This document shows, one piece after another, positions 15,371 to 44,390 of a DNA stretch of 64,000 bases. Source of the DNA: Nitrospira sp. (GTDB taxonomy: Bacteria > Nitrospirota > Nitrospiria > Nitrospirales > Nitrospiraceae); contig JAFEBI010000011.1 of the NCBI GenBank assembly GCA_018242725.1, forward strand, positions 186,001 through 250,000, in the 5' to 3' direction. The notes below the pieces were generated by a model that saw only the letters and a program-made list of their open reading frames with translations, did no database searches and had not been told where the DNA came from. Position 1 is the stretch's first letter; each line of letters begins with the position of its first letter. Both the position numbers and the translations under genes were made by a program.

Positions 15371-15487
15371 ATGAAAGAAATCGCGACGGAGAATCTCGTG
15401 ATCGGTGGGTTAGCCGGTCTGGGCGTAGTAGTGCTGCTTGTGCTGTTCGTCTATGTGGTGAAACAGATCATCATGAGGAAAGACTGA
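15371..15487 (+). CDS. 38-residue single-span membrane microprotein
   Basis: A short frame beginning MKEIATENLVIGGLAGLG, then a hydrophobic run of ~20 residues, ending in a basic VKQIIMRKD tail. This gives one membrane helix with a positive inside end. Its TGA overlaps the ATG of ribE (TGATG), typical of coupled translation, and it sits 27 bp after the MFS gene. Support comes from the clean frame, membrane topology and the overlap. It could be a transporter accessory or simply a leader that couples ribE translation. Confidence 0.6.
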   Translation: MKEIATENLVIGGLAGLGVVVLLVLFVYVVKQIIMRKD

Positions 15488-16140
15488 TGTTTACCGGTAT
15501 TGTCGAAGAAATGGGCGGGATTACGGTCATGAATAAGTCGCTGGCCGGAGCCAAGCTGACGATTTTGGCTTCGACGGTGATGAGTGATCTGAAAATCGGC
15601 GACAGTGTGAGCGTGAATGGGATTTGCCTGACGGTCGTCTCGCGAAGCGAACGCGACTTTTCCGTAGAAGTCTCTCCTGAAACGCTTTCAGTCACGACCC
15701 TCGGTAGTTTTGCCGTGGGCATGCCGGTCAATCTTGAGCGGGCCATGAAGTTGAATGAGCGAATCGGAGGCCATCTTGTCGCGGGACATGTGGATGGAGT
15801 GGGTGTAATCCGCAGCCGGCAGCAAGATGCCAATACCATCGTGTTTACCATCGGAGCACCTCCGGAGATTTTGCGCTATTGTGTCGCAAAGGGTTCGGTT
15901 ACCGTCGATGGCATCAGCCTCACGATCAATGCCGTGAGCGAGCAAGGGTTCAGCGTCGCCATCATTCCGCACACAGCCAAGGTAACAATCCTGGGCCTCA
16001 AACAGGTGAATGACACCGTGAACCTGGAATCCGATCTTATCGGGAAGTATGTCGAGCGGCTACTCCAAGAACGCAGCCACCTTTCCAAATCGACCATCAG
16101 CATCGATACAGAGTATTTGCAGAAGCGGGGATTGATCTAA
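15487..16140 (+). CDS. ribE: Riboflavin synthase (alpha-type)
   Basis: Makes riboflavin from two molecules of 6,7-dimethyl-8-ribityllumazine, the last step of the pathway. The two tandem lumazine-binding barrels are visible: MFTGIVEEMG at the start of the first and GHLVAGHVDGVG at the start of the second, near residue 96. Length, 217 residues, is normal. Its start overlaps the stop of the 38-residue microprotein. The last ~130 bases of this gene occur again, diverged, at 16593-16752 beyond a HigBA module, so the intact 3' end may itself be a recombinant. Confidence 0.95.
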   Translation: MFTGIVEEMGGITVMNKSLAGAKLTILASTVMSDLKIGDSVSVNGICLTVVSRSERDFSVEVSPETLSVTTLGSFAVGMPVNLERAMKLNERIGGHLVAGHVDGVGVIRSRQQDANTIVFTIGAPPEILRYCVAKGSVTVDGISLTINAVSEQGFSVAIIPHTAKVTILGLKQVNDTVNLESDLIGKYVERLLQERSHLSKSTISIDTEYLQKRGLI

Positions 16141-16148
16141 TCGCTTCA

Positions 16149-16265
16149 AATGGCGGTGAAAATGGAAAGGAACAGTACAGCATTCGAATTAACGATCAGT
16201 GGAGGGTTTGTTTCGTATGGGTTCAGTGCAATACCCGTGATGTGGAGATTGTGAACTACCATTGA
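16149..16265 (+). pseudogene. higB: C-terminal fragment of HigB-type toxin
   Basis: 38 codons in frame to a TGA match the end of HigB/RelE-superfamily toxins: EQYSIRINDQWRVCF followed by DVEIVNYH. The N-terminal half is absent; the frame runs directly into the 3' end of ribE, eight bases away. It lies 8 bp before higA, the normal toxin-antitoxin order. The toxin is therefore a truncated relic, unlikely to be active. Confidence 0.8.
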
Positions 16266-16273
16266 GGTGCAAT

Positions 16274-16576
16274 ATGGCGCGCATACGTTTGCTGGAGCCG
16301 ATACATCCGGGTGAAATTGTGTTCGAGGAGTTTATGAAGCCGATGGACATCAGCATCAATCGGCTTGCTCGTGAGATTCATGTGTCGCCGGGCAGGATCG
16401 GCGCAATCGTCAATGGAAATCGTGCCATCACTGTTGATACCGCGTTTCGGCTCAGTCGGTATTTGGGAACGTCATCGGATCTCTGGATCGGACTTCAAGG
16501 AGAGTTTGATCTGCGAGTGGCCCAACGTACGATTGGGCCAGAAATTGAGAGGCATATCCAGCAGCATGTTGCATGA
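16274..16576 (+). CDS. higA: HigA-family antitoxin
   Basis: A 100-residue helix-turn-helix protein of the HigA addiction-module family: the RLLEPIHPGEIVFEEFMKPM start is diagnostic, followed by the DNA-binding helices up to YLGTSSDLWIGLQ. It normally neutralises HigB and represses the module. The ATG at 16274 is preferred (GAGGTGCAAT upstream) over one at 16262 inside the toxin remnant. Because the adjacent toxin is truncated, this is an orphan antitoxin. It ends 16 bp before the duplicated ribE fragment. Confidence 0.88.
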   Translation: MARIRLLEPIHPGEIVFEEFMKPMDISINRLAREIHVSPGRIGAIVNGNRAITVDTAFRLSRYLGTSSDLWIGLQGEFDLRVAQRTIGPEIERHIQQHVA

Positions 16577-16592
16577 GGGCACCTATCCACAA

Positions 16593-16752
16593 CTGACGAT
16601 GCTCGGTCTTATGTAGGTCAACGATACTGTCAATCTTGAATCTGACCTCATCGGAAAGTATGTCGAACAGATGCTTCAAGAGCGCGGCCAACTGCCCCAA
16701 GCCCACACCAGTTATTGATAAAGATTATCTGCAGAAGCGTGGACTGATCTGA
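16593..16752 (+). pseudogene. Diverged second copy of the ribE 3' end
   Basis: Translated in the right frame this stretch gives VNDTVNLESDLIGKYVE, identical to the corresponding part of RibE, and after a frameshift QKRGLI then stop, also as in RibE. An in-frame TAG sits where RibE has glutamine before VND. Homology begins about the TILGLK segment of RibE and ends at the stop codon. There are many silent third-position changes, so it is an old or foreign copy, not a fresh duplication. Higs BA lies exactly between the two copies. Confidence 0.85.
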
Positions 16753-16807
16753 TTTGTAGTGGGCTACTTTCAACTGCCGGTACTTGCATAGCTGAGGGGT
16801 AAAGCCT

Positions 16808-17872: not shown

Positions 17873-18304
17873 ATGACCTCAAATGGATGGTTCTTCTGGG
17901 CTGCGCTCTCAGCCTGCTTTGCGGCACTCACCGCGATCTTCGCAAAGATCGGCATTCAAGAGGTTGATTCTGACTTTGCCACCCTTATTCGTACAGTCAT
18001 TATCGTCTTCATCCTCGCGGCGTTCGTGTACTATACGGGCAAATGGAGTGATCCACGCAATCTTCCGCCACGAACTCTCCTGTTCCTTGGCTTATCAGCG
18101 CTGGCAACTGGTGCGTCTTGGGTTTGTTACTTCCGCGCGCTGCAGATGGGTGAGGTCGCCAAGGTCGCTCCCGTAGACAAGTTTAGTCTGGTCCTTGTCG
18201 CGCTGTTTGCCGTCTTCTTTCTCGGTGAACGTCTGTCCACAAGAGAATGGTTGGGTATCGGTCTGGTGGCCAGCGGTGCGCTTCTGTTGGCCTTCAAGCG
18301 GTAG
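17873..18304 (+). CDS. Half-size EamA-family (DMT) transporter
   Basis: About 143 residues with five hydrophobic helices making one EamA domain. Typical drug/metabolite transporters have two such domains in ~300 residues, whereas this single-domain class is thought to work as dimers. The pattern GLSALATGASWVCYFRALQMG and the ending VASGALLLAFKR are characteristic. Three ATGs in a row (17867, 17870, 17873) could start it. The frame looks intact. Confidence 0.8.
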   Translation: MTSNGWFFWAALSACFAALTAIFAKIGIQEVDSDFATLIRTVIIVFILAAFVYYTGKWSDPRNLPPRTLLFLGLSALATGASWVCYFRALQMGEVAKVAPVDKFSLVLVALFAVFFLGERLSTREWLGIGLVASGALLLAFKR

Positions 18305-18348
18305 CAGCTCTGGTAAGCTATGGGCTTCTAAATATACTGAAAGTATAG

Positions 18349-18406
18349 GGTCGGGAGTCTTTATGAAGCGCTTGAGAAGTAAGATGTCGATAATGGACTC
18401 CCGACC
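18349..18406. repeat. Perfect 11-bp inverted repeat (GTCGGGAGTC family), copy 1
   Basis: GGTCGGGAGTC at 18349-18359 pairs with GACTCCCGACC at 18396-18406 across a 36-base loop. A related copy lies at 20378-20434 and a one-sided GTCAGGAGTCTTTAT occurs near 43579. The shape recalls REP-type palindromes. It lies downstream of the zinc-ribbon gene and after the EamA gene, so it could also act in transcript ending, though there is no T-run. Confidence 0.6.
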
Positions 18407-18433
18407 AGGATTCCAATCCCACATTATCTCTAC

Positions 18434-18607
18434 TTAACCTGCCGCAACGGCCTGAGGCTCTCTTGTCGCCAAACTCTTTCGGCGATTGGTGACAATGGTG
18501 CGGTCGATCATCGCCCCGCAATTGATACATTTCCATGCGTAGAACACGATAAAGAAATCCGAGAACCGCTCCAGCATCATCATCCCATGACATTTCGGAC
18601 ATTCCAT
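18434..18607 (-). CDS. 57-residue zinc-ribbon protein, copy 1
   Basis: A small frame starting at the ATG at 18607 behind AGGAGGGATCG. It has CPKC at residues 3-6 and CINC at 27-30, the two knuckles of a zinc ribbon, with an aromatic core (FSDFFIVFYAWK) between and a basic stretch after. A paralog at 20462-20635 differs at only six positions (H7Q, V39A, R43Q, T48A, R49Q, A55T), and most DNA differences fit selection on protein, which supports coding. Role unknown, possibly nucleic-acid or protein binding. Confidence 0.8.
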   Translation of the reverse strand: MECPKCHGMMMLERFSDFFIVFYAWKCINCGAMIDRTIVTNRRKSLATREPQAVAAG

Positions 18608-19253
18608 CGATCCCTCCTAAGGTGGTTAGGCGCACAACTACTGCCGGACATAAGCCAGAGCAGCATCATAGTGATGTGGTGCGGTTTTTTGGAAAATTGG
18701 TAAATAGCTAGCTCAATATACGTTATAACGTTACAACCTATTGACGGTGGGGAAGAGTGAATGCGTTAAGGTTTTGGCCAAAGGCGATCGTGGGGGCATT
18801 CAGTTGAGGACGAATCGTGTCAGGGATAGGAGGGTGGGGTAGATCGTGGTGCGCTTTCTTTCGGTGGGTGCTGGTAATAGTGCGGTTGATCTTTGCACCG
18901 CAATGGAATGAAAAAGCTAAGGGCAGAACTGTTTCCTTGCAGGAGGTAACAAGCAGGAAAGTCGGACCGTGATAAACCAGGGAAACACGGAGATGATCAA
19001 AACGTTCACGTTAGGATGAGGAATAGTACTCTGACGCCCATTCTTTTCCTTACAGACTGTATAAGACGATGATCTGAGAGTGGTATGAGGGCAAAACTTG
19101 CCTTGCTCCAATGAGTATAGAGCAGGCAATCGTATATATCCTCCGATTTGGGCAGATGTGGGCAAGCTGCAGTAATGGGGCTATGCAGTCTGCTGAAACA
19201 TTGTTGGGGATCTCCATCGTGGCCAACTTACGCGTACAATCGGAGGTGTCATA
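18608..19253. other. Gene-free region, left repeat leader and acyltransferase upstream DNA
   Basis: About 645 bases. The first ~220 are the leader of zinc-ribbon copy 1 and recur, diverged, at 20636-20865 (shared blocks include GTGATGT.GTGCGGTTTT and GTTTTGGCCAA). Next comes copy B of the 17519 repeat at 18921-18996. The rest up to 19241 leads to the acyltransferase ribosome site. No gene was seen. Confidence 0.55.
18921..18996 (+). repeat. Dispersed repeat, copy B
   Basis: Counterpart of 17519-17594 in the same orientation; see that entry for the shared blocks. It lies between the left zinc-ribbon segment and the acyltransferase. Confidence 0.5.
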
Positions 19254-20276: not shown

Positions 20277-20377
20277 GGTGACTTCAGAGGAATTCTCTTT
20301 TATAAAGCAAGAGCGGTCAGGTTTTGGTATCTTGACTTCCCCGTTGGGGGTCGATATGTTATGGTCTTTAAAAAAGG

Positions 20378-20434
20378 GGTCGGGAGTCTTTATACAAAGA
20401 TTGAGAAGCAAGATGTCGCTAACAGACTCCCAAC
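20378..20434. repeat. Imperfect inverted repeat (GTCGGGAGTC family), copy 2
   Basis: GGTCGGGAGTC at 20378-20388 faces GACTCCCAAC at 20425-20434, the same element as at 18349-18406 with a decayed right arm. The loop sequences of the two copies are also alike (GAGAAG.AAGATGTCG). Confidence 0.55.
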
Positions 20435-20461
20435 AAGATTCCAAATCCACATTGCCGCTGC

Positions 20462-20635
20462 TCAGCCTGCCGTAACAGCCTGAGGCTCTTGTGCTGCTAA
20501 ACTCTTTTGACGGTTGGTGGCAATGGTGCGGTCGATCATCGCCCCGCAATTGATGCATTTCCATGCGTAGAACACGATAAAGAAATCCGAGAACCGCTCC
20601 AGCATCATCATCCCCTGACATTTCGGACATTCCAT
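20462..20635 (-). CDS. 57-residue zinc-ribbon protein, copy 2
   Basis: Near-identical paralog of the 18434-18607 protein, with the same CPKC and CINC knuckles, same length and an AAGGAGGAATCG ribosome site before the ATG at 20635. Six residues differ between the copies, mostly in the C-terminal tail. It lies 185 bp after the acyltransferase on the opposite strand. Retained cysteines in both copies argue that both are functional. Confidence 0.8.
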   Translation of the reverse strand: MECPKCQGMMMLERFSDFFIVFYAWKCINCGAMIDRTIATNRQKSLAAQEPQAVTAG

Positions 20636-20968
20636 CGATTCCTCCTTGGGTGGTTAGGTTCGTAACTGTTGATAGATGCAGGCAAGAGCTGCGCCATGGT
20701 GATGTAGTGCGGTTTTCAATGATTTACTAAATACCTAGCTAAATATACGTCATATAGTTACAAAAGGTTGACGGTTGGATGAATTTATCCGTCAATGTTT
20801 TGGCCAAGCGTGATTGTGTGGGTATCAGTTAGGGAGTAATCGTTCCAGAGAATAGGAGAGCGGACTGGATTACGTCACGACAGACTGCAGCAGGAAGTCG
20901 TGTAGGGCGTTCTCTCTTCATTCAGCAAAGACCGTTGAATCTGTGCTGTCGGAAGAGGCTTGCTGTGT
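20636..20968. other. Right repeat leader and intergenic DNA
   Basis: About 330 bases. Positions 20636-20865 are the second copy of the zinc-ribbon leader found at 18608-18830. The remaining 100 bases lie beyond the acs-linked small gene. No gene or clear terminator was seen. Confidence 0.5.
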
Positions 20969-21198: not shown

Positions 21199-23088
21199 TT
21201 ATTCCTCAATTGTTGAAATGTCTCCCGGATCCTGTCCGAGCTCTTTTGCTTTGAGCACCCGACGCATAATTTTCCCAGATCGCGTTTTCGGAAGTGATGA
21301 GACGATATCAATTTCAGACGGCACGCCGATCTTCCCTAATTCTTTCAGGACCTGATCTTTGATCGACTTGATCAAGGTGGGACTTTCCTGCTCTCCCTGT
21401 TTCAAGATAATAAAGGCCTTGATGGATTCACCGACGGTCTTATGAGGCTTTCCGATGACGGCAGCTTCCGCAACGGCGGGGTGACTGACCAAAGCGCTTT
21501 CCACTTCAGCCGTGCCGAGCCGGTTGCCGGCGACCTTGATCACATCATCAGCCCGCCCCATGAACCACATGTAGCCATCTACATCTTTATGGCAGACGTC
21601 GCCGGCCGTATAGCAATTGGGGATCGTATTCCAGTAGGTCTTATACCGATCGGGATCCTTGTAGATCGTGCGCATCATGGATGGCCACGGTTTCTTGATG
21701 ACAGCAAACCCACCAGAGTTGGCTGGGAGGCTGTTGCCTGCGCGATCCACGACATCGGCTTCAATACCAAGAAATGGGCGTGTGGCCGAGCCTGGCTTGA
21801 GAGGGACGGTGGGAAGCGGAGTAATCAGAATCGCCCCCGTTTCGGTTTGCCACCAAGTGTCCATGATTGGTTTGTCCCCGCCCGTCACGCGGTGGTACCA
21901 TTCCCATGCTTCTGGGTTGATGGGCTCACCGACGCTGCCAAGGATTCTGAGTGTTGAAAGGTCAGACTTCTTTGGCCAGTCTTCGCCGTAGCGCATCAGC
22001 AGGCGAATAGCAGTCGGAGTGGTATAGAAAATGGAGACGCCGTATCGTTCGATCAGATCCCACCAGCGCCCTGGAGTCGGATAGTCAGGTTTTCCTTCTG
22101 CTGTGAGGATTGTCGCGCCATTCAGAAGCGGTCCATAGACGATGTAGCTGTGGCCTGTGACCCAACCAGGATCGGCCACACAGAAATAGACGTCCTCATC
22201 TTTCAAGTCGAACACATATTTCGTCGTCAGATAGGTACCGACCATGTAGCCGCCATGGACATGGACGACGCCCTTGGGTTTGCCGGTTGTTCCGGACGTG
22301 TAGAGGATATAGAGTGGGGATTCTGCATCGAGTTGTTCCGCTTCACACACCGCACTTTCCTGCTTGACCCATTCGTTCCAGTCAATTTCCTTTGGAGCTG
22401 AAAGCGCTGTCCCAGGCACTTGACGCCGGACGACCACCACATGGCCGACGGTGGGACAGCTCCTGAGTGCCTCATCCACCACGGGCTTTAGGTTGATGAC
22501 TTTGCCACGATCAAAGCCGACATCGGCGGTGATCACGACCTTTGTCTCAGCATCGTTCACGCGACTCGCGAGGGCCGGTGCGCTGAATCCTGAGTAGACC
22601 ACGCTGTGGATCGCACCGATCCTCGCGCAAGCCAGCATGGCAATGATTTGTTCTGGAATTTTCGGAAGATAAATGGTGACGCGGTCACCTTTCCGAACTC
22701 CGAGCTTCTTCAGGGCGTTGGCGCAGCGATTGACCTGTCGGTAGAGTTCGCCGTACGTGAAGATGCGTTCCTGGTCGTTTTCACCGACCCAGATCAGTGC
22801 GACTTTATTCTTCCGCCAGGTGTTGACGTGACGGTCCAGGCAGTTGTAGGCAATATTGCATCGCGCATCGACGAACCATTTCGCCCATGGATATTCCCAC
22901 TCCAAGACCTTGCTCCAAGGCGCAAACCACTCGAGTTCCTTGGCTGCATTACTCCAGAACGTCTCCGGATCCGCGATGGATTTCTTGTACTCGGTTTCGT
23001 ACTCTTTGATGTAGGCTGCGGCGATCGTCTTCGCAGTCGGCCGATAGGTCCGACTTTCCTTTAAGAGGGTCTCGATCTGTTCACTCAT
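21199..23088 (-). CDS. acs: Acetyl-CoA synthetase
   Basis: AMP-forming ligase that makes acetyl-CoA from acetate, ATP and CoA. It has the adenylate-forming signature [19 protein letters not shown], the WWQTETGA block and, near the C-terminus, [11 protein letters not shown] with the catalytic lysine that is a known acetylation control site in the family. The ATG at 23088 (MSEQIETLL) is preferred: GAAGGAGA lies upstream and 629 residues is slightly under the usual ~650. A longer frame from 23163 would overlap the divergent neighbour region. Confidence 0.95.
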
Positions 23089-23284
23089 GGCAGGCTTGTC
23101 TCCTTCTTCAAGGCAGTCCAGGGCAGCGGGGGGCATTATGGAGAAAGTCATGGAGACCTGCAAGCATGCAGGGTGTGAGCGATCCTCTCGCGATGGGCGA
23201 GCGCTTCAATTCAGTTTCTTGACACCGGCCATAGCTAGAGATAGGCTCACAACCCCGACGAGGAACGCGCTACAGAGGCTGAGG

Positions 23285-35360: not shown

Positions 35361-35502
35361 GAAGTCGCTTTCTGTGAAGAGTGAAACGAGCTAGTTCCAA
35401 GAAAACATACTGATGTCGGTTCGTCAAGGACTACCAGACGACCAGCGATGTATTGTGGTCAGCCTGTGACCACCCATGTCCAGCTTAGAGGTAACCATTG
35501 TT

Positions 35503-36690
35503 ATGAGAACTGATATGACGCCGACCGCTCACGTTCGTCTCACGCCTGCACGCGGTTCAGAGAGTCGGCATCTGTGGCTCTATGCCGGGCATGTCGGATC
35601 GCTCGTCGGTGAGGCAACCGCCGGGGATCTCGTGGATGTGCTGACCGCCGATGGGAAATTCTATGGACGTGGCCTCTATAATCCTGCTTCGAAAATCCGT
35701 GTTCGGCTTCTGACGTTTGAGGACGAGCCGATCGATGACAAGTTCTGGCAGGTGAGAATCCGGCAGGCCATCCATCTCCGGCAGCGAGTCGTCACGCAGT
35801 CCAATGCCTATCGGCTTATTTATGCGGAAGGCGACAGACTGCCGGGGTTGATCGTGGATCGGTATGATCAGCTGCTGGTGATGCAGTGTCTCTCGTTTGG
35901 GATGGATAGCCGTAAGGAACTCATAGCGGACGTGCTGATGAAGGAATTGGGTCTGACACGAGTCTATCTGCGGAACGAGGCCAAGAGTCGCCAACTGGAA
36001 GGCTTGCCGCTCGAACGGAGGTTTCTCTCGGGTAGCGGCCCGACGCAAGTCGAGATTCAGGAGGGGGGTGCGAAGTTTCTCGCCGATGTGGAGAAGGGGC
36101 AGAAGACCGGCTGGTTTTGCGATCAGCGGGAGAATCGGTTGGCGGCGGCAAAGCTCGCAGCAGGAGCTGAGGTATTGGAGGTCTTCTGTCATACCGGCGC
36201 ATTTGGCATTCATGCCGCGCTCGCCGGAGCCGTGTCAGTGGAAGGCCTTGATGTCAGTCAAGATACACTGGCCATGGCCCGAACACATGCCGCAATGAAC
36301 AAGGTGGAGGATCGCTGCGCCTATCGCCACGCCGATGCGTTCGAGGAGATGCGCAAGCTGGTGAAAGCAGGGCGGCGTTACGATGTGGTGATGCTTGATC
36401 CCCCGGCGTTTGCTCGTAGTCAACAGGCTCTGGCCGGCGCCTTGACGGGGTACAAGGATGTCAATCTACTGGGATTGAAATTGCTCAAGCCTGAAGGGTT
36501 TCTCGTTACCAGTTCCTGTTCCCATCCAGTCTCTGAGGAAGATCTCTGGAAAAGCATTCGTCTTGCGACACGCGATGCCAAGCGCGAAATCCGTCTGATC
36601 GAACAACGAGGCCACAGTGCCGATCATCCCATCCTCGCCAGCATGCCTGAAACGAGGTATTTGAAATGCTTCATCGTGCAGGTGCTGTAG
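35503..36690 (+). CDS. rlmI: RlmI-like class I rRNA (cytosine-C5) methyltransferase
   Basis: 395 residues: an N-terminal PUA-type RNA-binding domain (HVRLTPARGSESRHLWLYAG), an RNA-binding link, then a Rossmann methyltransferase with VLEVFCHTGAFGIHAAL and MLDPPAFARS (motif IV) and the catalytic VTSSCSHPV. Matches RlmI/RlmK-type large-subunit rRNA methyltransferases. A start at 35503 is preferred as GAGGT lies upstream; an ATG at 35476 is possible. The 3' 140 bases are present again at 38755-38895 beyond a metallopeptidase gene. Confidence 0.88.
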   Translation: MRTDMTPTAHVRLTPARGSESRHLWLYAGHVGSLVGEATAGDLVDVLTADGKFYGRGLYNPASKIRVRLLTFEDEPIDDKFWQVRIRQAIHLRQRVVTQSNAYRLIYAEGDRLPGLIVDRYDQLLVMQCLSFGMDSRKELIADVLMKELGLTRVYLRNEAKSRQLEGLPLERRFLSGSGPTQVEIQEGGAKFLADVEKGQKTGWFCDQRENRLAAAKLAAGAEVLEVFCHTGAFGIHAALAGAVSVEGLDVSQDTLAMARTHAAMNKVEDRCAYRHADAFEEMRKLVKAGRRYDVVMLDPPAFARSQQALAGALTGYKDVNLLGLKLLKPEGFLVTSSCSHPVSEEDLWKSIRLATRDAKREIRLIEQRGHSADHPILASMPETRYLKCFIVQVL

Positions 36691-36859
36691 CTGTACGGTT
36701 TTCCCTTGGATGTTTTTCTTGTAGATCTCCAGGGTCTCCGCAACGCGTTGCATTCCGTAATTGGAGGGTGTAAGTCTTTGCCGTTAGCTACGCTGCGGTC
36801 GATGGTAGGTATGTTTGCATATCGTACTATGGCCAACTTCAGATAAGGAGTTTGGGCAT

Positions 36860-38620
36860 ATGAAACAGGCTGCGCGTTCACGACTCTCTAACCTGCTTTA
36901 TCTTTCCTTGGCGTTCTTTCTGGTGATCGGGGAGGTGATGCCTACTCAGGCTTCTGAGGCGGGCGATCTTGCTTCGCCGGGGAAACAAGGCGACGTCCAT
37001 CATCCGATACAACCGGCTGGAAAAGCGGATCCGAGCCTTCTTCCGCTCTGGGCAGTGCTTGAAGGGAAGGCGAAGGGAAAAATCACTGGATTCTGGAGAC
37101 CAGGGCCTGGTTCGCCTCACACGGTGTATGGGGTGCTTTCTGAAACTGCGAGACCATCCGAATCATCGGCGCGACGATTCCTGTCTGAACATGCCCAACT
37201 TTTCAAGCTTGATCCGACGCTCAACGACCTGTCTGTGACCAGACAGACTGAGAGCCTCATTGGGACCCAATTTGTCTTTGAGCAACGGCATCACGGCATT
37301 TCGGTCTATGACGGGCAGATCAAGGTATTATTCGACGGGCAAGGTCGAATCCGAGCGGTGAACAATTCGTACGTTCCCCTGACCGGTATTGTTGATCCGA
37401 CCCCATTGGTGAGTAGTGGTCAAGCAGTAGAGGCAGGGCGCATTCATCTTGAGAGGAATCAGACCCAGGGTCTTCTCGATGAAGAGGTCCCAGCTCCGAT
37501 TGCCAATCTGGTTGTCTATGCAGAGGATGGCACACCCACGCTAGCCTGGGAAGTGATCCATCACACATGGGGACCCACCTGGCAAGTATTCATTGACGGC
37601 AAGACGGGTCACGTACTGAAGCCTGCGCAAGATCTGAACCGTTATGCCACGCCGATCCGAGGGCTGGGACAGGTATTCGTGACGAATGCCATTGTGGCCA
37701 CCGGAGACCCGTCATTGCGAGACAACAAGGACGCTGCTTCGGCTGTCCCATCGTCGGCCTATAAAACGGTCGTCTTGGAACGATTGTTAGGAACCGGCTA
37801 TCTTGAGGGAGCGTATGCTTCCAGCAGTGCCTCAAAGAAGCGCGTCTACAGCCCGACCCATCAATTCCTCTTCGATAGGAGCTCCAATGGGTTCAGCGAA
37901 ACGATGGGGTACTATTTTCTGGATTTTGCGCAACAGCGCATTCAAGCTTTAGGGTTTACCGACGCCAAGTCGATCAATGCTCGGCAGCAAGCGTTTAGTA
38001 TTGATCGCTCGCCCAAAGACAACTCCTTCTATTCACCTTCCTCCAGGGACATAACGTTCGGGACCGGGGGTGTTGATGACGCCGAAGACGCTGAGATGAT
38101 CTGGCACGAGTACGGTCATTCGATCCAAGACTATCTAGTTGATGGGTTTGGGACGACGGCTGAATCTGGAGCTATGGGCGAAGGCTTTGGGGACTATTGG
38201 TCTGGGACGTTAGGAGAGCAGTACAACACGATCTCGCTGAATGGCGTCCCTGAGAAGGTCTGTCTGGCGGAGTGGGATTCGACGACCTATCGGACCGGCA
38301 CGCCCACCTGTCTGCGGCGCTTGGACGGGACGAAACATTATCCTGAAGACATGGTGGGGGAGGTGCATGACGATGGTGAAATGTGGTCGTCGGTGCTGTG
38401 GCTGATTCGGGCAGCGCTTGGCGCAGACAGGGCCGACCGCGTCATTCTGCAACACCACATTCTGCTCCCCAAAGATGCCACGTTTAACATGGCGGGACAT
38501 GCGCTGATTGAGACCGCATGTTCCTTGAAATATCCGGTCTCAGCCATGGCGAGTATTCTCCGTGCAAGAGGATTTGAAACGAACGGCACTCCGTTCCCTG
38601 ACGCGTGTCAGGTCCCATGA
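36860..38620 (+). CDS. Secreted zinc metallopeptidase (M36/fungalysin-like)
   Basis: 586 residues with a signal peptide ending near TQASEA. An FTP-type propeptide region (~90-260) ends before the catalytic domain. The zinc site is HEYGH at residues 416-420 with the third ligand Glu441 in GAMGEGFGDYWSG, the fungalysin arrangement. The ATG at 36860 follows AAGGAGTTTGGGC. It lies alone between the RlmI-like gene and a copy of that gene's 3' end, so it may be inserted cargo. Extracellular protein degradation is the family role. Confidence 0.87.
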   Translation: MKQAARSRLSNLLYLSLAFFLVIGEVMPTQASEAGDLASPGKQGDVHHPIQPAGKADPSLLPLWAVLEGKAKGKITGFWRPGPGSPHTVYGVLSETARPSESSARRFLSEHAQLFKLDPTLNDLSVTRQTESLIGTQFVFEQRHHGISVYDGQIKVLFDGQGRIRAVNNSYVPLTGIVDPTPLVSSGQAVEAGRIHLERNQTQGLLDEEVPAPIANLVVYAEDGTPTLAWEVIHHTWGPTWQVFIDGKTGHVLKPAQDLNRYATPIRGLGQVFVTNAIVATGDPSLRDNKDAASAVPSSAYKTVVLERLLGTGYLEGAYASSSASKKRVYSPTHQFLFDRSSNGFSETMGYYFLDFAQQRIQALGFTDAKSINARQQAFSIDRSPKDNSFYSPSSRDITFGTGGVDDAEDAEMIWHEYGHSIQDYLVDGFGTTAESGAMGEGFGDYWSGTLGEQYNTISLNGVPEKVCLAEWDSTTYRTGTPTCLRRLDGTKHYPEDMVGEVHDDGEMWSSVLWLIRAALGADRADRVILQHHILLPKDATFNMAGHALIETACSLKYPVSAMASILRARGFETNGTPFPDACQVP

Positions 38621-38754
38621 GAGTAGGTTTGGTGAGGGGAGAGCAAAGGGCACAAGGCTGAACGGATCGTCGGGCTATGTTCTCGTGTGCGCCGGTCTTA
38701 TCTGCAAAGTTATGGTTTGCTGACATGGTTCCATTCCTTAGAGTCGGTCACTTG

Positions 38755-38895
38755 AACAGCATTCGCCTCGCCGCCCGCGACGCCAAGCGAGTCATCCGCC
38801 TGATTGAACAGCGAGGCCACAGCGCCGACCATCCCATCCTCGCCAGCATGCCTGAAGCGCGGTATTTGAAATGCTTCATCGTGCAGGTGCTGTAA
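38755..38895 (+). pseudogene. Second copy of the RlmI-like gene 3' end
   Basis: Encodes SIRLAARDAKRVIRLIEQRG and runs in frame to YLKCFIVQVL and stop, the same C-terminus as the intact gene at 35503-36690. By eye there are about 17 mismatches in ~138 bases, clustered toward the 5' side; the last ~40 bases are nearly identical. No start or methyltransferase domain is present, so it is a gene remnant. It sits 134 bp after the metallopeptidase stop. Confidence 0.85.
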
Positions 38896-39018
38896 CGGCT
38901 TTGAGGCAACATCTTTCTTCGGTTAGCCTTGACTCTGCATGTGAATGGTACGGGCGTATTTGCTATCACAGGGGGCTCGTGGTGATTGTTGAGAAGGTTT
39001 CATTCAAGGGAGGTCCTC

Positions 39019-39459
39019 ATGGAGAAAGACTCGATACGCAGCAAGATCAAGGCGGCTCGGCTCAAGAAGAAACTCAAGATCGCCGATGTCGCGAAAGCCA
39101 TCGGCAAGAATCCCACATTCGTAGCGGCGGCGTTGAATGGCAATCATCGGTTCACCCAGGTCGAAGCGGTGAAGGTCGGTAAGCTTCTGGGGTTGGACCA
39201 TGAGCTTGTCCAGTCCTTGAGCCGCTTTCCGGTACGCGCAGATCTACCGAACATGACGGACCCGTTTAAGTACCGGTTGCTCGAAATCATCGGTGTCTAT
39301 GGAGATTCATTGCGTGAGATGGCAAACGAAACATTCGGCGACGGCATCATGAGTGCGATCGATTTCACGATGGATATGGAAAAGGTCACCGGCAGCCAAG
39401 GAGAAACTCGCTGCAAAATCACGCTGAACGGGAAATGGTTGGAGTATAAGTCGTTCTGA
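39019..39459 (+). CDS. cynS: Cyanase (cyanate hydratase)
   Basis: 146 residues. Converts cyanate and bicarbonate to ammonia and CO2. The C-terminal catalytic domain is unmistakable: DPFKYRLLEIIGVYG with Arg86 and Glu89, and FGDGIMSAIDFTMDMEKV with Ser112, matching the three catalytic residues of the E. coli enzyme. The helical N-terminal domain is also typical. The ATG at 39019 follows GGGAGGTCCTC. Known nitrite oxidisers of this group carry cyanases that can feed ammonia to partner nitrifiers. An IS30-type element begins 15 bp after the stop. Confidence 0.95.
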   Translation: MEKDSIRSKIKAARLKKKLKIADVAKAIGKNPTFVAAALNGNHRFTQVEAVKVGKLLGLDHELVQSLSRFPVRADLPNMTDPFKYRLLEIIGVYGDSLREMANETFGDGIMSAIDFTMDMEKVTGSQGETRCKITLNGKWLEYKSF

Positions 39460-39473
39460 GGAGAATTTTATCG

Positions 39474-40530
39474 ATCGCAGATTCAACTTCCCAGTGCATA
39501 ACCTCAGCGCCGTTTCGCCAGCGCATGAAAGACCTCGTTGGGCGTTTGAAAGCCAAGCGATTTACGGGGCCTGCGATTGAGTAGGCGCTCTACCTTGGCC
39601 ACCGTTGCGTGATGGATTGTAGAGAAATCCGTGCCTTTAGGAAAGAAGTCCCGGATCAGTCCATTCGTGTTCTCATTCACCCCGCGTTCCCATGCATGAT
39701 AGGGCGTGGCAAAGAAAACCTGGGCGTGGAGGCACTGCGCGGTGTGCCGGTGTCATAGGTGATGGTGTGGACATGCTGGCGTAACGGTTTCAGACGAGCC
39801 ACGGTGGCACAGTGTGTTGCCTGCGCCGTGGGCTGAGACAGTTTCGAAATAATCGTGAACAGGCTTTTGCGTTCGACATGCGTCAGGAGCCTGCCGTGAT
39901 GGCGGGTGCCCACCAGGGTGTCCCCTTCCCAATCGCCCAGTCGTGACTTGGCTACCACGATCGCAGGCCGCTCCGCGATGTCAACTCGATGCGGAATCAC
40001 CCCGCGTCCGGCGTGCTGCGCCCCGCGCTGGTTGTATCGCTTACCCCGTCGACGCAAGAAGCGCCAGAGATCACCACCCCTGCGCTTGTTCGCCCAAATC
40101 ATCTGATAGATCCATTCAGGGCTGAGCGAGAGGCCACGTTCCTTCCACAACCAGAAGCTGAGCTGCTCGGGACTCCACCGTTCTGCCCGGAGCTTGCGGA
40201 TCAGTGCATGGCGAACACCGCTGGTCAGTTTGCGAGGTTGGTGCCGGACTTGTTGCTGGCGAGCCTGGGCCAAACACTGTGCTTGCTGAAACCGGTAGCC
40301 TCGTTGTCCGGTATTCCGAGCCAGTTCTCGACTGACCGTCCCCTGACTGAACCCCAGGGCCTGGCTGATCTCGGCCTGGGTCTTCCCCACCTTGTGCAAG
40401 GCATAGAGCTGACAGCGATCTTCGTACGTGATCCGACGATATGTCCTCATGGAGCCCCTCTTGGTGTGCCAAGAGGTTACTCCATCACGCCGTCGGTGAA
40501 ATTATGCACTGGCTACTTGAATCCGCAGAT
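39474..40530 (-). mobile_element. IS30-family insertion sequence with frameshifted transposase
   Basis: Imperfect terminal inverted repeats bound the element: ATCGCAGATTCAACTTCCC at the left (39474 on) and, read on the other strand, ATCTGCGGATTCAAGTAGCC from 40530, both leading to CAGTGCATAA. Inside is one IS30-type transposase frame on the minus strand. It inserted just after cynS. Because the transposase is disrupted, the copy is probably inactive. The short target duplication was not resolved. Confidence 0.82.
39504..40450 (-). pseudogene. IS30-family transposase, frameshifted
   Basis: Starts at 40450 with RRITYEDRCQLYALHKVGKT, an HTH of the IS30 type, and has the first DDE block DWEGDTLVG. 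The second Asp (TITYD) is followed by a break: the continuation, PYHAWERGVNENTNGLIRDF with the catalytic Glu, and the end SLGFQTPNEVFHALAKRR are in another frame. A short deletion around 39735-39760 explains this. Product would lack the third catalytic residue. Confidence 0.85.
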
Positions 40531-40671
40531 GGATAGAGCGTGTCATCAGGTTGGATTGCTCGACGCACCGCCGCTGTCGTGCGGGCGCTCCCGTGGAGTA
40601 CTTGTCCCATAACGCATCCTTCCATTGATGGCTGAAGAGTACACCATCAAATGCTGAGACTAAACAACCTA

Positions 40672-41417
40672 GGGACTGTTAACACTATTGATCACGGTTA
40701 TGCGATACGGCGTACATGGAACTGACCGAGGCTCAGTATCGTCACATCAAGCCATGCTTGCTGACGCCACGCGGCAACGTCACTCTGGACAATCTGCAGA
40801 TGCTCAACGCTATGTTGTACGTGGCTGAGCAGGGCTGTCAATGGCGGGGGCTGCCCAGGCGATTTGGCAACTGGCACACCATCTATACGCGCATGAATCG
40901 GTGGGCCAAGAGCGGGGTATTGGATCGCGTCTTTGCCCAGTTGCAACAGGCACAGATCATCCGGATCAAGATCGAAACCGTGGCCTTAGACAGCACCCTC
41001 GTTAAGGTGCATCCCGATGGGACCGGGGCGTTAAAAAAAACGGCCCGCAAGCCATCGGACGATCCCGCGGCGGATGGACCACCAAAATTCATCTGGTTGC
41101 CGCGACTGCTCGAACGGTTCTGACGTTTACGCTGTCGCCAGGCCAGGCCCCCGATGTCCCTGAAGGGCGCAAGTTTCCCCACCGCTTCGGGAAACAGCCG
41201 TGCCCCATCCCCTAATTAATGGATCGGGCGTATGAAGGCGATGAGACACGGCAACTTGTTGTGGAGTTAGGGTATGTGCCGGTGGTGCCTCCCAAGGGCA
41301 ATCGTCGGATACCATGGGACTATGATCACACGCTGTATACGCGCCGCAATGAGATTGAACGGCTGTTCCGCAAGCTGAAGGGATTTCGACGCATCTTCTC
41401 TCGCGTTGACAAGCTCG
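40672..41417 (+). mobile_element. Truncated IS5-family insertion sequence
   Basis: The left end is near GGGACTGTTAACAC at 40672, typical for this group. The right part is missing: homology to the IS5-type transposase stops at ...FSRVDKLD and the next base begins a copy of an unrelated secreted-protein gene (41418-41525). No right inverted repeat was found. The element is a deletion derivative. Confidence 0.75.
40716..41417 (+). pseudogene. IS5-family transposase with slippage site, premature stop and lost C-terminus
   Basis: The first frame (40716-41123) begins MELTEAQYRHIKPCLLTP and holds the first Asp (VALDST). At 41030 a run TTAAAAAAAAC permits a -1 shift, as in IS5-group elements that use programmed frameshifting; the shifted frame reads KKNGPQAIGRSRGGWTTKIH and goes on to MDRAYEGDETR and NEIERLFRKLKGFRR with the remaining DDE residues. 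A TAA at 41213 interrupts it just before MDRAYEG, and the C-terminus is cut at 41417. Confidence 0.82.
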
Positions 41418-41525
41418 ACCGGAAGCATCGTTCCCCCTGGCACAACGGGAAGCGCGGTCTGTTTTGAATGAGACGGTGAGCACTACCCACCAAGCGTCGC
41501 TGCGGTATCGCGCGTGGGCGGGGTA
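41418..41525 (-). pseudogene. Fragment of a secreted-protein family (copy 1 of 3)
   Basis: About 108 bases align base by base with the 3' part of the gene at 43728-44390 (shared blocks CGGTGAGCAC, CAACGGG, GTCGCTG, GCGCG). Only this piece is left, joined directly to the truncated IS5 element, so the element or a deletion removed the rest. Confidence 0.6.
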
Positions 41526-42415: not shown

Positions 42416-42736
42416 TTATTTATCGAACACGCCGCTCAAGCCGTCGGTGCACCATTGCAGTTCAGTCTTCCACACCAAGTAGTCCTGCTTCGTGCAGCCC
42501 TCGACTGGAGGCATCGTGCCGCCTGGCACAACGGGAAAGGCTGATTGTTTTGCGTTTGTCGGCGAGCATGAACCACCTACCATTGCGGGTGTATAACGCG
42601 CGGAGCGGCAGGCCAAGCGCGTCACATCGTAGAGTATCGCGCCGTGATCGAGCTCCCAGCGTCGGTCGCCATGGCCGTCGGCGGGATGAATCGTCAGCAT
42701 TGCCATCACCTTTGTGGCATGCACGGCTTGAGTCAT
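42416..42736 (-). pseudogene. N-terminally truncated secreted protein (copy 2 of 3)
   Basis: 106 codons that match the C-terminal half of the 43728-44390 protein: LTIHPADGHGDRRWELDHGA, then YDVTRLACRSARYTPA and PPVEGCTKQDY. The signal peptide and first ~110 residues are missing and nothing upstream replaces them, so it is probably not exported. It preserves the C-terminus VWKTELQWCTDG that copy 3 loses to a frameshift. Confidence 0.7.
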
Positions 42737-43727: not shown

Positions 43728-44390
43728 TCAGTTTTCCACACCCACACCGATCACGATGAGCACTGCGTAGTCTTGCTTCATGCAGCCTTCAACCGGAGGC
43801 ATTGCTCCGCCTGATGCAACGGGGAAGGCCGACTGCTTTGCGCTAGCCGGTGAGCACGAACCACCCCCTGTCGCTGGCGTATAGCGCGCGGAACGGCAGG
43901 CCAGGTGCGTCACATCGTAAAGTGTCGCGCCGTGATCGAGCTCCCAGCGTCGGTCGCCATGACCATCGGTTGGATGAATCGTCAGCACGGTCGTCACCTT
44001 GCGAGCTCCCGTGACCAGGTATTTGCCGGAAGGGAGAGGAACGGTTGGTTGCTCCATAATCAAGCCGTGCTCCTCCAGCCACCAGTCTCTCTCGTCAAAC
44101 TTCCAACGCGCCGGGGCAAGGCCGCCAGCCTCTTTCAATGAGTGATAGCGGCTTAGCTTTACGCCTCGAGGCCCTGGGTCCAGTGGCCACAGACCCCACA
44201 ACTGTGCGTTACTCCCCGAAGTCGCACCAGCATCGCCCAATGCGGCGATGTACTGTGTCGGGATGCGCTTGAACTTCGTCTGGTTTCCATCTGCAGCGTG
44301 CACTGCTGGCACCACGACCACGATCGTCAGCAGTAACGCCATTACCAAACATGCGCGGCGGATTCTGATTGTGCTGAGGATTGACATCAT
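43728..44390 (-). CDS. Secreted protein of unknown function (copy 3 of 3, C-terminus frameshifted)
   Basis: 220 residues with a signal peptide (LTIVVVVPAVHAAD). The mature part has KFKRIPTQYIAALGDAGA, LWGLWPLDPGPRG, RWELDHGATLYDVT and several cysteines near the C-terminus. Compared with copy 2, about 22 extra bases after GCMKQDY shift the frame and end the protein early at 43728; the original frame continues open to a TGA at 43580-43582. This copy is otherwise full length. Function unknown. Confidence 0.7.
   Translation of the reverse strand: MMSILSTIRIRRACLVMALLLTIVVVVPAVHAADGNQTKFKRIPTQYIAALGDAGATSGSNAQLWGLWPLDPGPRGVKLSRYHSLKEAGGLAPARWKFDERDWWLEEHGLIMEQPTVPLPSGKYLVTGARKVTTVLTIHPTDGHGDRRWELDHGATLYDVTHLACRSARYTPATGGGSCSPASAKQSAFPVASGGAMPPVEGCMKQDYAVLIVIGVGVEN

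Follow-up and report, generated by a model that had tools for sequence, protein, structure and literature searches.

A cargo hotspot at the 3′ end of rlmI in one Nitrospira lineage, with probable gene exchange by homologous recombination

In one lineage of Nitrospira, the 3′ end of rlmI, which encodes an RlmI-like 23S rRNA methyltransferase, is a hotspot for cargo genes. The evidence comprises duplicated copies of the gene end (tails), blocks of cargo plus tail that are shared between genomes, a reciprocal chimera at a second host gene (ribE) and a breakdown of clade structure over the final 140 nt of the intact rlmI. We consider it probable (roughly 0.7) that homologous recombination drives the exchange at this site, with cassettes that carry the end of the host gene as a homology arm. 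Cargo is apparently swapped between species by this route without a dedicated recombinase.

The window analysed here is a 64,000-nt stretch of a Nitrospira sp. contig (JAFEBI010000011.1, positions 186,001–250,000), in which rlmI occupies 35476–36690 of the plus strand and is recognizable by its PUA_3 and Methyltrans_SAM domains (Pfam). A repeat search of the window returned six families of direct repeats of at least 40 nt. One of these pairs 36543–36689 with 38748–38894 over 147 nt at 87% identity, which agrees with the preliminary description of a gene end of ~140 bases recurring at ~88%. By repeat search and alignment, the intact 3′ end (36543–36690, plus strand) is the reference copy; the displaced copy (38748–38895, plus strand) has no 5′ part, nhmmer with a full-gene profile having found nothing upstream of it, and is not a gene. 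In a whole-genome search the segment matched at two sites only (E values of 5e-72 and 4e-46), which excludes chance. Identity is 80.9% in the preceding part and 94.7% over the last 57 aligned nucleotides, and the reported gradient towards the stop codon therefore holds. The two ends have five rare states in common, at −79, −46, −33, −28 and −9, and none of the five rare states located further left than −79; the shared states point to exchange close to the stop codon.

Between the two ends lies the gene (36860–38620, plus strand; Pfam Peptidase_M36) for a secreted M36, fungalysin-like metallopeptidase of 586 amino acids, with an FTP propeptide motif and HEYGH as the active-site motif; searches by sequence found no relative in the PDB. 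The order is that first proposed for the region: host gene, cargo and second 3′ end. The displaced end runs straight into a segment (38896–39459, plus strand) that consists of the native rlmI–cynS spacer and the cyanase gene cynS (39019–39459; Cyanate_lyase), and this segment is 87.5% identical over 577 nt to the direct rlmI–cynS junction of locus L088. The tail continues into the native spacer, and the cargo therefore separates rlmI from its own former end, now displaced. In relatives, cynS is the first cargo after rlmI: the order is rlmI–cynS–tail in L088 and L093, and the two genes directly adjoin in G001, G010, G016 and G024. Just past cynS, at 39500–41500, the window contains an IS30-like transposase and a broken IS5-like transposase; relatives with rlmI–cynS carry an rlmI tail where the window has these transposases.

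The peptidase also sits between two rlmI tails in G023, and in G004 it adjoins F120, a downstream neighbour gene of the rlmI locus. Its divergence from its relatives equals or exceeds that of rlmI, and its likeness between species is no greater than that of rlmI. Given this divergence, similar to that of the host genes, and its presence beside F120, the peptidase seems to be long established in the neighbourhood and not newly acquired. In the window, it may be an old resident that moved within the neighbourhood and not a recent import.

For about 90 distinct Nitrospira genomes, we examined rlmI contigs with up to 15 kb of downstream sequence. Searching them with a profile built on the rlmI 3′ end detected extra copies in only 11 distinct genomes, all from one lineage in which RlmI is ~79% or more identical to that of the window. 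These genomes have one to three tails each, every tail being the last ~40–330 nt of rlmI, and the cargo ahead of the tails varies (M36 peptidase, cynS, RelBE and a PIN toxin); different cargo between the same repeated ends, which the preliminary description had suggested seeking in other strains, is thus present. Throughout this hot lineage, the genes after rlmI differ in almost every genome. Many genomes have novel cargo after rlmI without a tail, and further defence-like genes occupy the site without a tail copy. In deeper lineages, by contrast, a constant set of three neighbours (families F9, F8 and F10) comes after rlmI in most cases, with no tail. Some of the genes found after rlmI could be named using Pfam and PADLOC. 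They include a TIR protein, a DndB/DpdB-like protein, DUF5131, an HNH nuclease, an FRG-domain protein (PDC-S15), an nSTAND3 protein (PDC-S73), a C5 methylase with an NgoMIV restriction enzyme, a PIN toxin, a cyanase, and trypsin-like and M36 peptidases.

The right end of the tail is at the stop codon in nearly all copies, and left ends vary, the longest lying ~330 nt before the stop. On a tree of the rlmI body, from which the last 330 nt were left out, tails are patchy, occurring in 11 of 36 scored genomes and requiring at least 8 changes. This distribution bears on the idea that a complete second rlmI was inherited and decayed in place until only its 3′ end was left. Such decay could account for the longer copies (to about −330), some of which have internal deletions (L088, L093, G001), but it does not fit the patchiness of the copies or their anchoring at the stop codon. 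Moreover, a full-length rlmI profile (nhmmer at maximum sensitivity) found nothing upstream of gene position 852 of 1,182 in any of the 11 loci, so a complete second gene was either never there or left no trace. On this search we rejected a decayed second gene, which we regard as highly improbable. The preliminary description had held that its reading would fail if such a gene were found, or if the second end occurred without any cargo across the genus. We found no tail without cargo in the 11 tail-bearing genomes, in which the shortest gap between rlmI and a tail is ~345 nt.

Cargo and tail also travel together. The relBE genes and their tail form one contiguous homologous block in G004 and G018, directly after rlmI in the former and third in an array in the latter. 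This block is 84.0% identical over 749 nt between the two genomes, compared with 78.5% for the upstream gene; between G018 and L093, the block is 89.5% identical, against 83.6%. A PIN toxin with its tail is common to G010 and G018. In G023, the last tail copy is followed by sequence that in G029 directly adjoins the intact rlmI, which places the cargo of G023 between the gene and its old end. At rlmI itself we saw no donor–recipient pair; the clean chimera is at ribE.

The shared blocks are relevant to another explanation, in which a local tandem duplication reaching from within rlmI into the downstream DNA was later entered by cargo between its two ends, with no transfer of cassettes. A possible precedent is found in the single-contig genome G024 (C1:263189–268434; L225 and L226), in which the 3′ part of a gene and the next gene form a perfect 2,623-bp head-to-tail duplication; this could be a first step towards the tail layout or an assembly error. 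Transformation can produce such duplications through short repeats (PMC3784515), and the first tail may have originated in this way. As a full account, tandem duplication is nevertheless unlikely. It leaves unexplained the cargo–tail blocks shared across clades at different array positions, the foreign 3′ ends in the intact gene and the blurring of clades over its last 140 nt, and cargo-free intermediates of duplication were absent across the loci examined.

Entry of cargo by a crossover inside the tail would require the intact gene to acquire foreign 3′ ends. There are no clade-diagnostic sites in the last ~140 nt of rlmI, and we turned this absence into a test of divergence by comparing two clades, of 21 and 9 genomes, from the hot lineage along the intact gene. 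Net divergence between the clades is 0.014 in the last 140 nt, compared with 0.087 over the rest, and values as low were found in none of 170 other 140-nt windows and in none of 5,000 codon resamples. The step occurs at about −140, where many tail copies start. Purifying selection is not the cause, because it would also lower diversity within clades, which is unchanged (0.136 and 0.163 in the last 140 nt, against 0.147 and 0.150 in the rest). In an upstream control gene net divergence is low as well (0.022–0.071), without a step. The effect holds in tail-free genomes too, which suggests that exchanges of the gene end outnumber the tails that persist. The collapse of clade divergence, confined to the last 140 nt, reveals excess recombination in the flanking core gene, a signal that does not tell cassette insertion apart from other recombination at the flank of a hotspot.

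The same layout had been reported at ribE and higBA, and this parallel was confirmed. The riboflavin synthase gene ribE (15487–16140, plus strand; Lum_binding) lies ~20 kb upstream of rlmI, both in the window and in relatives. It is followed on the same strand by a gene for a HigA-type antitoxin (16262–16576; HTH_3) and a displaced ribE 3′ end (16593–16753; nhmmer 137 bits, gene positions 496–654); in the repeat, 16004–16141 recurs at 16615–16753 with 74% identity. The window's higB, as we read the sequence, is apparently reduced to a C-terminal remnant. C-terminal fragments of ribE are present downstream of the gene in about 14 of 51 genomes, and the HigA-type antitoxin with the last ~163 nt of ribE recurs as one cassette with one junction in 8 genomes from two lineages.

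Using diagnostic sites defined with close panels of genomes, we found that ribE of G019 is a reciprocal chimera, in which the intact gene has a foreign 3′ end and the displaced copy has the native one. The intact gene is native at 8 of 8 scored sites in 489–567 and foreign at all 10 sites in 592–645, where it also has an additional codon that is characteristic of the other lineage. In the displaced copy, 492–502 is foreign and 13 of 13 sites in 537–645 are native. The switch points consequently differ (567–592 in the gene and 502–537 in the copy), and other copies switch elsewhere. Two crossovers of a two-armed donor fragment fit these differing points better than one site-specific event.

Site-specific integration would offer a different route, in which a tyrosine or serine recombinase acting in trans places integrase-less, cis-mobilizable cargo at an attachment core close to the stop codon, as at ssrA. 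Nearly all copies stop exactly at the stop codon, and the tandem stacking resembles the accretion of integrase-less elements (PMC3146451). Integron-type integrase genes also occur directly after ribE in G023 (L234; C197:5155–6098) and, in G018, immediately past the ribE tail (L232; C2:248337–249269); with two genomes only, these are too few to explain the pattern. Phage_integrase domains (PF00589) are present in 14 of 14 genomes searched but absent within ~15 kb of rlmI in all 14, and on this basis we rejected a tyrosine integrase at the site. Nor was IntI found near rlmI. The repeats reach ~330 nt rather than 15–30 nt, and exchange points differ between the gene and the copy in G019 and between genomes. 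Instead of a fixed crossover position in a short core, switch points vary and copies span ~40–330 nt. A left boundary near −118 had appeared precise enough to be site-specific; we rejected it because L088 and L093 show that such edges can come from internal deletion in longer copies. An attC-like fold of the tail was likewise rejected, as the single-stranded DNA folds no better than shuffled sequence (z of +0.96 and +1.53). We therefore judge site-specific integration improbable, slightly more so than tandem duplication. The preliminary description had attributed the identity gradient to recombination or to an attachment core at the gene end. Recombination is favoured; the attachment core is not supported, given the scattered crossovers inside the tail, the variable left ends, the unremarkable fold and, in 14 genomes, the lack of an integrase within ~15 kb.

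Under homologous recombination, a cassette in the donor would consist of cargo with the intact rlmI end on its left and a displaced copy on its right, each of which could pair with the single rlmI end of the recipient. One or more crossovers inside the rlmI end would insert the cargo. The recipient gene would gain the donor 3′ end and stay intact, and its own 3′ end, together with the native downstream DNA, would be left as the second copy. Almost no two strains have the same DNA to the right of rlmI, which suggests that cargo enters by way of the left-anchor copy that it brings along as a homology arm. Linear donor DNA could enter by a double crossover, or a circle could integrate; we infer that the donor may be linear and that selection may keep the tail. 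Repeated events would add tails and build arrays, and crossovers between tails could delete cargo. ComEC and DprA, present in 6 of 6 genomes, would permit DNA uptake, and from this gene content we infer that natural transformation may be the route. Recombination of this kind would account for the observations with machinery that is already known.

Several known systems resemble parts of this arrangement. Integron gene cassettes are small, rich in toxin–antitoxin genes and shuffled in arrays. The rlmI site is similar in these respects, but it has no attC-like fold and no nearby IntI; long homology to the host gene replaces attC. Integrase-free hotspots, described in 2017, have variable cargo beside a conserved core gene and excess recombination in the flanking gene, and are enriched in transformable species (PMC5635113). 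The rlmI site is like these hotspots in its variable cargo beside a core gene, its recombination in the flanking gene and the lack of a detected integrase, and high gene turnover beside the conserved gene is found across the lineage. In those hotspots the double crossover falls in two different flanking core genes (PMC5635113), whereas at rlmI a single gene end can supply both arms, which yields displaced partial copies and arrays.

In the orphan toxin/immunity arrays of cdiA and rhs, modules recombine into the 3′ region and push the old end downstream, and iteration generates arrays (PMC4927057). Displaced host-gene 3′ ends with modules are likewise found at rlmI. In CDI/Rhs systems each displaced end codes for another version of the toxin domain of that protein; by contrast, the rlmI product is essentially unchanged, the cargo is unrelated to rlmI, and the hosts are rlmI and ribE rather than large polymorphic toxins with exchanged C termini. 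The ssrA islands of Dehalococcoides are tandem modules bounded by a gene 3′ end and direct repeats, some of them without an integrase, and are inserted site-specifically by a serine recombinase at a fixed point with a 20-bp repeat (PMC3146451). The rlmI site differs in its long repeats and variable crossovers, and no recombinase was found in the element or in related elements at the same site (PF00589, 14 genomes).

Other repeats were observed in the window and elsewhere. A repeat of ~485 nt (80% identity) at 18348–18836 and 20377–20858 flanks an acyltransferase gene, and each copy includes a 57-amino-acid, zinc-ribbon-like open reading frame and a GGGTCGGGAGTC motif. A 234-nt repeat (82%) at 42479–42712 and 43767–44000 falls in two minus-strand open reading frames of one family, one of them shortened, with a third related piece at 41414–41517. 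Outside the window, on contig C2 of G000 (18280–18820 and 22727–23270; L149 and L150), the end of a DUF6908 gene and its downstream DNA are repeated at 79% identity around a 1,059-amino-acid open reading frame that is SIR2-like by eye; this may be a further hotspot, the third, like those at rlmI and ribE.

We tentatively suggest a broader generalization, somewhat less likely than not to hold as a whole, in which selfish or defensive cassettes dispense with a recombinase and keep a housekeeping-gene 3′ end (that of rlmI, ribE and probably others) as their homology arm. RecA-mediated insertion anywhere in the genus would repair the gene that is entered, and selection on spread would maintain the arm.

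For many integrase-free turnover hotspots, it is unclear how cargo enters when homology is missing on one flank. The anatomy of the rlmI site supplies an answer: the duplicated end of the host gene is the missing arm, and the intact gene logs each event as a foreign 3′ end. The entry of cargo by homologous recombination thereby becomes readable and testable from sequence, and it accounts for part of the shuffling of toxin–antitoxin, defence and cyanate genes in nitrifying Nitrospira.
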